A program made the position numbers and the translations under genes. A DNA stretch of 64,000 nt, taken from positions 310,001-374,000 of the forward strand of contig MKVM01000003.1 in NCBI GenBank assembly GCA_001898835.1, in the 5' to 3' direction. Numbering within the stretch: position 1 is the stretch's first letter; each line of letters starts with the position of its first letter. The notes under the pieces were generated by a model that worked only from the letters and a program-made list of their open reading frames with translations, made no database searches and was not told the origin of the DNA. The DNA comes from Micrococcales bacterium 72-143 (GTDB lineage Bacteria; Actinomycetota; Actinomycetes; Actinomycetales; Microbacteriaceae). This document shows, piece after piece, positions 7,312 to 61,971 of the stretch.

Positions 7312-7343
7312 CGCCCTGCGCGCCTACGGCGCCGGGCCACCCT

Positions 7344-7408
7344 CCGCGAGTGGTCGTATTTCGGCCCCAGAACCTGGCTTTTGGGGCCGAGATACGACCG
7401 GTCGGCGG
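7344..7408. repeat. Palindromic element, GAGTGGTCGTATTTC family
   Basis: Long inverted repeat filling the gap between convergent genes. Left arm CCGCGAGTGGTCGTATTTC continues into GGCCCCA; the right arm is its near-complement with GACCGGTCG at the outer end. About 26 positions pair with a few mismatches around a short loop. It ends 4 nt from the stop of the minus-strand gene at 7412. Relatives are at 34596-34656 and 35795-35852. Confidence 0.85.
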
Positions 7409-7411
7409 GGG

Positions 7412-8179
7412 TCAGTTGAGCGGGGGCGTGTCCTCGGGGATGACGCCCCCGGCGTAGAGCGAGGAGCCGAGGTCGCGGAGGGCGCGCAACGCCACGCGCT
7501 GGGTCAGGGGGCCGTAGGAGATGCGGGCCACGCCCATCCGCTCATAGTCGGCGGCGGGGAGCGCGCCCGGCAGCCCGATGATCGAGAGACGGCCGCCGAA
7601 GGCCTCCGCGAGGCGCTCGACGACGTCCCGTTGGGTCGGACCCGGCACGAATACGAGCGCGGCGCCCTCGGCGAGGAACGCGCGCCCGCGGGCGATCGCC
7701 TCGCCGAGCTTGTGCTCCACGTCGCCCTCGCCACGCAGGAACGCATCCGTGCGGGCGTTGAGCTGGAACGCGACGCCCTCCGCCTCGGCGGCCGCCGTGA
7801 TCGCGCGCACGCGGGCGACGGCCTCCTCGAAGGGGCGCATCCGGTCCTCGACGTTCGCGCCGACGATGCCGAACCCGATGGCGCGGCGGATGGTCTCGGC
7901 CGGGTCGTCGTAGCCGTCGTCGAGGTCGGCGCTCACCGGCAGCTCGACGGCGTCGGCCACCGTCTTGGCGCCCGCGAGCGCGAGCTCGAGCGGCATCCCG
8001 CCGTCGGGGTAGCCGTGGCTCGCGGCGATCGAGTGGCCCGCGGTCGCGAGGGCGCGCGTGCCGGGGAGGTCGGCGACCACCTTCGCGCTCACCGCGTCCC
8101 AGACGTTGACCACCTGCAGGATCTCGGGCGCCTCGTGGAGCGCCTTGAGCGCGAGTGCCTTGTCGTTCGTCGTCGTCAT
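7412..8179 (-). CDS. Isocitrate lyase/PEP mutase family protein
   Basis: TIM-barrel protein of 255 residues of the ICL/PEPM superfamily, non-classical branch. Landmarks are VVNVWDAVSA near residue 25, TAGHSIAASHGYPDG, VSADLDDGYDD carrying the metal-binding acidic cluster, GANVEDR, and LNARTDAF. The catalytic KKCGH motif of true isocitrate lyases is absent, so it is not AceA. Family members split or isomerise C-C or C-P bonds of 2-oxo or hydroxy acids; the substrate is unknown. It lies 9 nt downstream of the DUF2200 gene and is probably co-transcribed with it. Confidence 0.88.
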   Translation of the reverse strand: MTTTNDKALALKALHEAPEILQVVNVWDAVSAKVVADLPGTRALATAGHSIAASHGYPDGGMPLELALAGAKTVADAVELPVSADLDDGYDDPAETIRRAIGFGIVGANVEDRMRPFEEAVARVRAITAAAEAEGVAFQLNARTDAFLRGEGDVEHKLGEAIARGRAFLAEGAALVFVPGPTQRDVVERLAEAFGGRLSIIGLPGALPAADYERMGVARISYGPLTQRVALRALRDLGSSLYAGGVIPEDTPPLN

Positions 8180-11190: not shown

Positions 11191-11272
11191 CAGAAATGCA
11201 GGAGCACCGCGCAAGGCGCCCCCGGCATCCGGCGCCGTCGACCCGCCGCCGTCGGGATCTCCTGCATTTCTG
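11191..11272. repeat. Palindromic element, AAATGCAGGAG family
   Basis: Perfect 14-bp inverted repeat: CAGAAATGCAGGAG at 11191-11204 against CTCCTGCATTTCTG at 11259-11272, 54 nt apart. It lies between divergent genes (cytochrome b-like and rlmC), 34 nt before the rlmC start, so it cannot be a terminator for either. It shares the 11-nt core AAATGCAGGAG with the nested palindromes at 2620-2790. Confidence 0.82.
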
Positions 11273-33499: not shown

Positions 33500-33557
33500 C
33501 GAGGCGTCACTTCGTGTCGCTTCAGAGGGCGCGCATCCGACACGAATCGACGCCTCG
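33500..33557. repeat. Palindromic element in clpC upstream region
   Basis: Inverted repeat with arms of about 20 nt: CGAGGCGTC-AC-TTCGTGTCG at 33500-33519 pairs with CGACACGAA-TC-GACGCCTCG at 33538-33557, with an 18-nt interior. Only the two central positions of each arm differ. It lies between divergent genes, so it cannot be a terminator of either. No second copy of this sequence was seen in the window. Confidence 0.8.
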
Positions 33558-35794: not shown

Positions 35795-35852
35795 CGAGTG
35801 GTCGTATTTTGGGCCCAAGACCGCCCGCTTGGGCCCGAAATACGACCACTCG
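35795..35852. repeat. Palindromic element, GAGTGGTCGTATTTC family (best copy)
   Basis: Nearly perfect inverted repeat with 25-nt arms and one mismatch: CGAGTGGTCGTATTT then GGGCCCAAG, an 8-nt loop, and the complement. It sits between divergent genes, and its right arm ends 2 nt before the GGAGGGAG ribosome-binding region of the pirin gene. It therefore cannot be a terminator here. Confidence 0.88.
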
Positions 35853-55330: not shown

Positions 55331-55393
55331 CGCTGAGTGGTCGGTTTCTGGCCTCGAAACGGTCGGATGAGGCTAGAAACCGACCACTCGCCG
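55331..55393. repeat. Palindromic element, GAGTGGTCGGTTTC family
   Basis: Left arm CGCTGAGTGGTCGGTTTCTG then GCCTC; right arm complements CGGCGAGTGGTCGGTTTCTA then GCCTC. About 23 of 25 positions pair around a 13-nt interior. It lies between tandem minus-strand genes, upstream of the lac promoter and 15 nt after the DUF3180 stop. Relative at 10064-10126. Confidence 0.85.
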
Positions 55394-60903: not shown

Positions 60904-61971
60904 CTAACTATCCGCGGCGAAGACGAGGAGGCCGGCCTCGCGGCGGGCCGTGAGGCCCGGCAGGTCGATCGGGCCCTGGCCGTGCCAGTCGGTCACCAGC
61001 CGCGCCACCTCGAGCGTCTGCGTGCGCGTGAGCGACGCGCCGAACTCCGCCGCCACGACGAAGCGGATGACCCGCTGCCGCAGCGCCGCAGGGTTCGCCG
61101 CGAGCGCCGCGACCGACACCGCGATGCCCGCCTCGGCCGGCTCGCAGATGTCCTCGATGAACTCCTCGATCTGCTGCTCGAACGCCTCCGCGTCCTCGCG
61201 CGCCTGCTCGGCCGTGCGGGCGAGGGCCTCCGCGATGCCCGGCCCCAACTCGGCCTCGAGCACCGGCAGCACGCGCTCCCGCACCCGCACCCGCGCGTAG
61301 GCGGGGTCGAGGTTGTGCGGGTCGTCCCACGGCTCGAGGCCCTCGTCGAGGCACGCCTGCCGGGTCTGGGCGCGGCGGATGCCGAGCAGCGGGCGGCGCA
61401 GCGGCCCCGCATCCGGCTCCATCCCCATGAGGCTGCCGCCGCCGCTCCCGCGGGCGAGACCCAGCAGCACGGTCTCGGCCTGATCGTCGAGGGTGTGGGC
61501 GAGCAGGGCGCAGCGCGCGCCCGTCTCGACGACCGCGGCGACGACCGCGGCGTAGCGCGCCTCGCGGGCCGCCGCCTCCGGACCCCCCGCCGTGCCGACC
61601 TCGACGCGGCGCATCAGCACGGGGTCGAGCCCGAGCGCGCGGGCCTGCTCCGCGGCACGCGCGGCCACCGCGTCCGACCCCGCCTGCAGCCCGTGGTCGA
61701 CGACGATCGCGCCCGCCCGGACGCCGGCTCGCGGCGCCTCGAACGCGGTCGCCGCCGCGAGCGCGAGCGAGTCCGCACCGCCCGACAGGGCCACGAGCAC
61801 GAGCGGGGCCGTCGCAGAAGCAGGCTGGATCGCGGCGGCGGCGTCACCCGCGCCGGAAGCGGCGATCGAGCCTGCTTCTGCGACCGCGAGGTCGGCGAGC
61901 GACGCCCGCACGGCGCGGCGGATGTCGGCCCGGGCGGGCGTGAGACGGGGGCGCGGGGCGTCGGCAGGCAT
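60904..61971 (-). CDS. tilS: tRNA(Ile)-lysidine synthase
   Basis: Modifies the wobble cytidine of tRNA-Ile(CAU) to lysidine, so that AUA is read as Ile; essential. 355 residues. The PP-loop is LVALSGGADSLALA, followed by VDHGLQAGSD, LAHTLDDQAETVLLGLARGSGG and IRRAQTRQ. Between the N-terminal helix (RAVRASLADLAVAEAG) and the PP-loop lies an Ala/Gly-rich insert whose DNA is a 23-bp inverted repeat (61811-61884). The insert keeps the frame and lengthens the N-terminus by about 25 residues relative to a typical TilS. ATG at 61971; divergent from ppa. Confidence 0.93.
   Translation of the reverse strand: MPADAPRPRLTPARADIRRAVRASLADLAVAEAGSIAASGAGDAAAAIQPASATAPLVLVALSGGADSLALAAATAFEAPRAGVRAGAIVVDHGLQAGSDAVAARAAEQARALGLDPVLMRRVEVGTAGGPEAAAREARYAAVVAAVVETGARCALLAHTLDDQAETVLLGLARGSGGGSLMGMEPDAGPLRRPLLGIRRAQTRQACLDEGLEPWDDPHNLDPAYARVRVRERVLPVLEAELGPGIAEALARTAEQAREDAEAFEQQIEEFIEDICEPAEAGIAVSVAALAANPAALRQRVIRFVVAAEFGASLTRTQTLEVARLVTDWHGQGPIDLPGLTARREAGLLVFAADS
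61811..61884. repeat. Palindrome inserted in frame within tilS
   Basis: Arms 61811-61833 and 61862-61884 (23 nt each) pair at every position but one; the core is GTCGCAGAAGCAGGCT with GATCGC on the inner side. The 28-nt interior is GC-rich. It encodes a low-complexity Ala/Gly/Ser stretch just before the PP-loop of TilS. Confidence 0.85.

Follow-up and report, generated by a model that had tools for sequence, protein, structure and literature searches.

An in-frame palindrome in tilS of a Homoserinibacter genome resembles two-armed DNA elements found elsewhere in the genus

We analysed a stretch of 64,000 nucleotides (the window) from the genome of Micrococcales bacterium 72-143, contig MKVM01000003.1, positions 310,001 to 374,000 of the forward strand; the genus of this genome is Homoserinibacter. 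Within the window lies tilS, the gene for tRNA(Ile)-lysidine synthase, which carries a long palindrome in frame ahead of its PP-loop. The features of the locus, in window coordinates, are as follows:

60904-61971, minus strand: tilS, tRNA(Ile)-lysidine synthase, 355 aa (open reading frame; PF01171; PF09179; relatives 1ni5, 3a2k and 1wy5 in the PDB)
61811-61833, plus strand: left arm of the palindrome, family B (see below), GTCGCAGAAGCAGGCTGGATCGC
61834-61861, no strand assigned: palindrome interior, 28 nt, giving a CAGGCT to AGCCTG spacing of N42
61862-61884, minus strand: right arm, family B, GCGATCGAGCCTGCTTCTGCGAC, an inverted copy of the left arm, complementary at 22/23 positions
61810-61884, minus strand: encoded low-complexity linker, residues 30-54 (from translation; low model confidence)

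The PP-loop domain (PF01171) spans residues 58-232 and the TilS substrate domain (PF09179) residues 286-349; among the PDB relatives of the gene product, 3a2k and 1wy5 are annotated as tRNA(Ile)-lysidine synthase and 1ni5 as MesJ. An initial annotation, made from the sequence alone, had described a 23-bp inverted repeat with a 28-nt interior at 61811-61884, lying in frame in tilS ahead of the PP-loop. Its coordinates proved exact, and both translation and domain assignment agree with the placement: the palindromic stretch encodes VAEAGSIAASGAGDAAAAIQPASAT, N-terminal of the PP-loop motif ALSGGADS. The palindrome measures 74 bases, with 23-nt arms and a 28-nt loop, and an inverted-repeat finder returned an extended version with 29-nt arms (90% complementary) and a 22-nt loop. 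In an AlphaFold model built from 38 sequences, the predicted local distance difference test score falls to 56 for residues 31-40 and 63 for residues 41-50, against an overall mean of 91.6. The stretch also sits between helix 12-25 and the first strand (57-62) of that model, and it therefore reads as a flexible linker.

Arms of the GCAGAAGCAGGCT type (≤2 mismatches) occurred within the window in tilS only. They recur elsewhere in the genome: the pattern CAGGCT-N44-AGCCTG was found in six copies besides tilS, which itself has N42. These copies constitute family B. Of the six, four fall between genes and the other two lie over the 3' end of a predicted gene, as called here and below by a simple codon-model gene finder made for this analysis rather than a published tool. 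Six copies (12 arms, tilS included) define the consensus CGTC..A....CAGGCTGRATCG, from which a copy with weak arms (L188) was excluded. Two more pattern hits with other spacing were taken as chance, the reversed control standing at 5 against 9.

One explanation would make the tilS palindrome an ordinary GC-rich linker that is palindromic by chance, and the linker does vary in length and composition across the family. We hold this to be highly improbable. With loops of 15-60 nt allowed, the top inverted repeat of tilS scored 20, compared with a maximum of 16 among 300 dinucleotide shuffles, and on this ground we reject a chance palindrome; the best among 57 other equal-length chunks of the window scored 18. 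The recurrence of the same arms at fixed spacing, and the presence of another family's palindrome at the same spot in five congeners, argue further against it.

For these comparisons the source genome is labelled G000 and its congeners G001-G008; the best named tilS matches include H. gongjuensis NBRC 108755 and Homoserinibacter sp. GY 40078. Only G000, among the nine, has a family B (CAGGCT) palindrome in tilS. Five (G001, G002, G003, G004 and G006) have at the same spot a palindrome of a second family, A, with longer arms (ATGCAGGAG-N54-CTCCTGCAT), and the remaining three (G005, G007 and G008) have a short linker and no palindrome. Linkers are longer where a palindrome is present. Of 80 named tilS loci retained, 76 could be parsed; two of these are among the congeners just described, leaving 74 of other genera. 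Long palindromes were found in only two of these 74, both from metagenome-assembled genomes (MAGs), namely L106 (Microbacteriaceae, score 21) and L135 (Micrococcales, score 16), and their sequences differ again. The L135 palindrome has imperfect 31-nt arms and a 12-nt loop. In a third locus, L159, a hairpin of 15 bp encloses a 5-nt loop; inverted-repeat scores of the remaining linkers were ≤13. The expectation that relatives' TilS would lack the insert is supported by three of nine congeners and by the loci of other genera, where two of 74 have long palindromes, and the linker is not a feature that all Microbacteriaceae share as non-palindromic DNA. The idea of an insertion stands insofar as the palindrome is absent from relatives; since another palindrome family occupies this site in five congeners, it is not simply a single G000-specific insertion.

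Presence and absence in tilS, and the switching of families in one and the same gap, are also what mobile elements would produce. Under this explanation the palindromes would resemble repetitive extragenic palindromic (REP) doublets forming hairpins (REPINs) or miniature inverted-repeat transposable elements (MITEs): inverted ends would be moved as a unit by a trans-acting transposase, the tilS copy would be an ordinary insertion in a tolerant linker, and the arms would be conserved because only functional ends spread. The architecture resembles that of REPINs as described in PMC3116915. The smc gene fits the same pattern, its linkers being longer when they hold a palindrome. In G000, G003 and G001 a variable linker of smc contains a family A palindrome in frame; the linker is short in G004 (no palindrome found), and in G002 another palindrome, with AACTCAGGA arms, occupies it. 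This comparison leaves out four of nine smc loci, which the pattern did not match. We regard mobility of this kind as a possible but rather doubtful account of the whole, in view of what family A shows elsewhere.

Family A has the form ATGCAGGA...TCCTGCAT. In G000 it numbers 44 copies, with spans of 72 (36 copies), 73 (6) and 71 (2), so that the N54 spacing holds in 36/44. The span is 72 in 20/22 copies fetched from G003 (33 found) and 73 in 23/24 fetched from G001 (32 found); practically all fetched G001 copies, orthologous sites included, are thus one base longer than is usual in G000 and G003. A stricter pattern gave 36, 32, 20, 33, 19, 3, 11, 0 and 2 copies in G000 to G008, respectively (places listed through part of G003), and its reversed control gave none in any of the nine genomes. 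No match was obtained for the arms at N15-45, because the usual spacing is 54. Across 36 aligned copies the arms are near-invariant and the interior approximately random. Arms of the GTCG type in family A share GTCG..A....CAGG with those of family B, and in spacing the two families are about 10 bp, or one helical turn, apart.

Arms of family A rarely stand alone. Over 218 kb, a few stretches of which overlapped, 14/17 arm hits were paired at a start distance of 65/66, two formed an outer pair around one element and one was weak. At a lower threshold, 10/17 hits were paired in 464 kb of G000, with one strong lone arm (21.9), as were 10/10 in 400 kb of G001, 2/3 in 200 kb of G008 and 0/5 in 200 kb of G007, where one was strong (20.3). 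This rarity of strong lone arms led us to reject a single-arm signal of the DNA-uptake type.

In three genes of G000, family A arms lie within predicted coding sequence:

L214:3193-3265: family A copy in tlyA
L222:3001-3073: family A copy in a yeiH-like gene (PF03601)
L218:3001-3073 (G000 C1:1061906-1061978): in-frame family A palindrome in the variable linker of smc; smc loci compared with it are L269, L270 and L275

The tlyA copy has as its 55-nt interior a native, conserved stretch, NPRV..LEG.N.R.LT, which aligns without gaps to G005 and G007 (arms decayed or none) and to other genera. Nor is there a gap at the left arm. The alignment places a five-residue length difference from other genera, which also occurs in the armless G007, to the right of the right arm. 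The interior of the yeiH-like copy (TPTALVTLFGT..IVVLP) is likewise native; its right arm aligns without a gap and its left arm lies at the end of a variable linker. Insertion of a whole mobile element is contradicted at both genes.

Codon usage points the same way. Among the six species with tlyA arms, 6/6 arm codons with a conserved amino acid are identical, as opposed to 54/181 elsewhere in the gene, G004 having one altered base in the left core; for the yeiH-like gene, which has arms in five species, the figures are 5/5 and 72/224. The tlyA arm codons are rare ones: in the genes of the window TCT, CCT, GCA and TTT are chosen among their synonymous codons in 1.6%, 4.0%, 5.0% and 0.8% of cases. 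That arm-bearing species have these codons in common counts against mobility, and what has to be explained is that rare tlyA codons are kept in 6/9 species, on both sides of a midpoint-rooted tree. For family A, subject to the selection caveats given below, the arms show constraint at the DNA level independent of the protein sequence. From the sequence comparisons, some family A elements seem to hold other genes to very rare codons, as if a DNA-level function were kept within protein-coding genes.

Positions of family A also persist between species. A copy lies at the homologous G000 locus, with both flanks matching, for 13/24 copies of G001 and 13/22 of G003. Eight (G001) and nine (G003) unambiguous ortholog pairs with G000 agree at 141/144 and 159/162 arm positions, respectively, with spans of 72/73 in 8/8 pairs with G001 and 72/72 in 8/9 pairs with G003. 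Similarity is nearly lost in the orthologous interiors (0.54 vs 0.50 when shuffled) and in 40-nt flanks (0.56 vs 0.51). Recurrence at orthologous positions, despite nearby non-coding DNA at near-shuffled similarity, is another point against mobility alone. Moreover, the sole near-identical pair of A copies (0.95) is apparently a neighbouring tandem pair in L337; GTRG was absent from all 88 A arms (outer 14 nt); and a regular-expression search for motifs of a REP-associated tyrosine transposase (RAYT) gave none that was convincing in 2.25 Mb of partly overlapping sequence, covering part of each genome and including other genera.

Loss can be seen as well. A midpoint-rooted tree was built from 1344 alignment columns of tilS, tlyA and smc. 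Of its six inner branches, two reached both support marks: they join G005 with G008, and that pair with G000, so that the G005/G008 pair nests inside the arm-bearing species as sister to G000. Family A is nearly gone in this pair (3 and 2 pattern matches) and G007 has no match; counts in the remaining six genomes run from 11 to 36. The tlyA arms of G008 score 11.6 and 21.2 at the same distance, those of G005 score below 0 and G007 has none, compared with 19.6 to 36.9 in the others. Such near-loss, together with decayed tlyA arms, would fit the loss of a trans-acting partner.

The placement of family A raises the further possibility that these are RNA-level elements, hairpins serving as 3'-end or terminator structures of transcripts and tolerated in tilS. 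Of the 44 copies in G000, 37 are intergenic, three lie over a gene end and four were called in-gene; one of the latter (L206) probably lies ahead of where an aldehyde dehydrogenase truly starts, which leaves tlyA, smc and the yeiH-like gene. None of 49 copies fetched from G001, G003 and G002 was called in-gene, in a fetch that omitted the known in-gene copies (tilS, tlyA and smc of G001). Convergent gaps hold 17/37 intergenic copies in G000, although they make up 12.5% of intergenic length (464 kb; P = 6e-7), and 16/45 in G001 and G003 together (P = 7e-5). This enrichment would suit transcript ends, as would the finding that all 44 G000 copies fold as RNA hairpins with paired arms (mean minimum free energy -48.9). 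What is conserved, however, is arm sequence and not pairing alone: in the 36 aligned copies, pairing between symmetric interior positions does not exceed expectation. RNA loops leave the nearly fixed 54-nt spacing unexplained, an Rfam scan of the window at gathering threshold gave no match, and a hairpin of this kind inside a gene ought to affect that gene. An RNA-level role as the primary explanation is unlikely. The same pairing result led us to reject a long hairpin running through the interior, even though the interior consensus looks weakly palindromic.

With moderate confidence, we favour the reading that these are REPIN-like two-armed elements whose arms are maintained by selection at the DNA level, probably via a putative spacing-sensitive factor. 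The tilS palindrome would be an in-frame copy of such an element, families A and B both consisting of two inverted arms of ~16-20 bp at a nearly fixed distance. Both arms would be contacted by a putative sequence-specific, spacing-sensitive DNA-binding machine with one specificity per family, a step suggested by the shared GTCG..A....CAGG and the ~10 bp difference in spacing between A and B. In tilS, and in smc, the element may have arrived or grown in a tolerant linker, with the translation of the arms a by-product. The reading frame would then set the length of the tilS element, which would account for N42 instead of N44 in the B copy and for N54 in the A copies, that of G001 included, although N55 is usual in that genome. 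The elements are likely to be of REPIN-type origin, with possible ongoing mobility.

Several observations weigh against DNA-level selection as the favoured explanation. The binding factor is itself putative. The tilS copy departs from the N44 norm of family B, the constraint data come from family A, and weak lone B arms (score 12 to 15) account for 3/8 hits in G000 and 5/9 in G001. The ortholog pairs were gathered through the arm pattern and the species of the codon test were chosen for having arms, both of which bias the counts towards agreement; across all nine tlyA genes a single arm position is amino-acid-conserved, and its codon varies. Strong lone A arms do exist (the two described above), intermediate A sites are practically absent, which is not obviously expected under gradual selection, and the ability of every G000 copy to fold as RNA must also be counted here. 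Interiors are more alike within G001 (0.459) and within G003 (0.425) than between genomes (0.384-0.408), the value within G000 (0.397) being no higher; orthologous interiors (0.368 with G001, 0.438 with G003) likewise do not clearly exceed the rest in similarity. Judging by sequence similarity, this pattern probably reflects copying or conversion rather than static sites; for G001 and G003 it is also a point for mobile elements. Palindromes come and go between species, in tilS and at its 3' end, where G008 has a palindrome of a further family (F) and the G000 gap is 7 bp, which favours mobility. Families have switched at one locus in tilS, in smc and at window position 33500, where G000 has family H and G008 family J. 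Given the interior similarity and the family switching, copying or exchange therefore probably also occurs.

A more far-reaching version of DNA-level selection can be put forward tentatively. Homoserinibacter chromosomes might bear a code of two-armed DNA addresses, in families that differ in their arms and each have their own span, read by dedicated spacing-measuring DNA-binding machines concerned with topology or organisation and not transposition. Such positions would outlast the alignability of nearby non-coding DNA, spacing would shift by one base in concert (72 in G000 to 73 in G001, 8/8 sites), genes such as tlyA would be held to very rare codons, and tilS would be an address swapped from A to B in this species.

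REPINs are described as inverted doublets with commonest spacings of 71 and 110 bp, a less conserved spacer and 18% singlets, with hundreds of doublets in SBW25 (PMC3116915). The present elements are like them in having two inverted, conserved ends of ~16 nt at a preferred distance, a less conserved middle, a mainly extragenic location and few lone ends. They differ in number (2-44 matches in each of the eight genomes of the genus that carry family A, vs hundreds in SBW25), in lying partly over native codons, in recurring at orthologous positions and in comprising several arm families within one genus. A 5' GTRG is the hallmark of REP ends; the A arms lack it, and no RAYT was found in the parts of the genomes scanned. 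REPs serve as binding sites (PMC2817692). Paired inverted motifs near gene 3' ends recall REPs and bacterial interspersed mosaic elements (BIMEs). The latter favour gene 3' ends, and their motif is, to our knowledge, unrelated to those found here.

Rickettsia palindromic elements (RPEs), of ~150 bp and with a conserved peptide, are palindromic repeats found in frame inside genes and between genes (PMC10969869), and were the parallel proposed in the initial annotation. The likeness lies in the in-frame palindromes within genes, here tilS and, for family A, smc, tlyA and the yeiH-like gene, and also between genes. By contrast, spans are shorter here (~55-90 bp; 74 in tilS), A interiors are approximately random, and those of tlyA and the yeiH-like gene are native. 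The claim of an in-frame palindrome in tilS is correct, and the RPE-type parallel suits the linker cases only, not tlyA and the yeiH-like gene, where arms lie over native codons. Nematomorpha mitochondria offer another case of inverted repeats maintained within functional protein-coding genes (PMC6649704); here, unlike there, short arms are common genome-wide, have nearly fixed spacing and are mostly intergenic. A search of the open-licence PMC literature, by titles and abstract starts, gave no account of elements like these for Homoserinibacter or Microbacteriaceae, which is a weak negative.

Some protein genes of this genus are seemingly under a second, DNA-level constraint, in the form of two short arms at a set distance over native codons, common to six species. 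Genes such as tlyA and tilS thereby offer a direct handle on whether REPIN-like doublets are purely selfish or sites of host function. The genus is also a natural experiment, family A being nearly lost or absent in three species and retained in the other six.

The initial annotation had also likened the tilS palindrome to the intergenic elements of the window. Architecture bears this out; the arm family does not, the intergenic palindromes belonging to families A, C and H. Palindromes of these families in the window are:

2667-2753, no strand assigned: intergenic family A element (GTCGAAAATGCAGGAG, N55), between convergent genes
7339-7412, no strand assigned: family C palindrome (GGTCGTATTTCGGCCC)
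11191-11272, no strand assigned: intergenic family A element (CAGAAATGCAGGAG, N54), with an orthologous A element in G001 (span 73)
33500-33557, no strand assigned: family H palindrome, replaced by one of family J in the orthologous G008 gap
35795-35852, no strand assigned: family C palindrome; the corresponding G008 gap gave no inverted repeat
55335-55389, no strand assigned: family C palindrome; the corresponding G008 gap likewise gave no inverted repeat

A nested arrangement occurs at 2625-2785, where extra family A arms at 2625 and 2767 enclose a complete A element. In G001, the neighbouring copies L337:1001 and L337:1152 have near-identical interiors, apparently through local tandem duplication.

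Three further ideas about family A were tried and set aside. A chromosomal macrodomain was not used; the 32 sites of G001 depart weakly from uniformity (Rayleigh p about 0.027). Matches to the A arms in three viral contigs were taken as chance: their spacers are 45-46 nt instead of 54, and the contigs have GC contents of 31, 32 and 53% and none of the other arm motifs tried. An origin of the family from tlyA is not claimed: the G001 tlyA interior is in register with the G001 pool (6 nt trimmed, z 3.4, rank 1 of 121), while the G000 and G003 pools gave z 0.9 and 1.2.

A de novo scan suggests more such families (C, F, G, H and J), each with its own span; they were defined by hand from the listing, with few copies each. 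Family F (GTTCCCGTTCCGCG, apparent span 58) occurs in two species, at L289:13458, L295:17605 and, in G008, L314:9706 (the 3' end of tilS). Family J (GTCCGCGAGAGTACGTACTTT, apparent span 69) has three copies in 200 kb of G008 (L310:12253, L311:11948 and L315:16100). Arm repeats GGTTGAGTAGC and GCGTATCGAAACCC occur in several copies in L310, L311, L315 and L316 of G008, and we presume that they may be a separate, widespread actinobacterial repeat.
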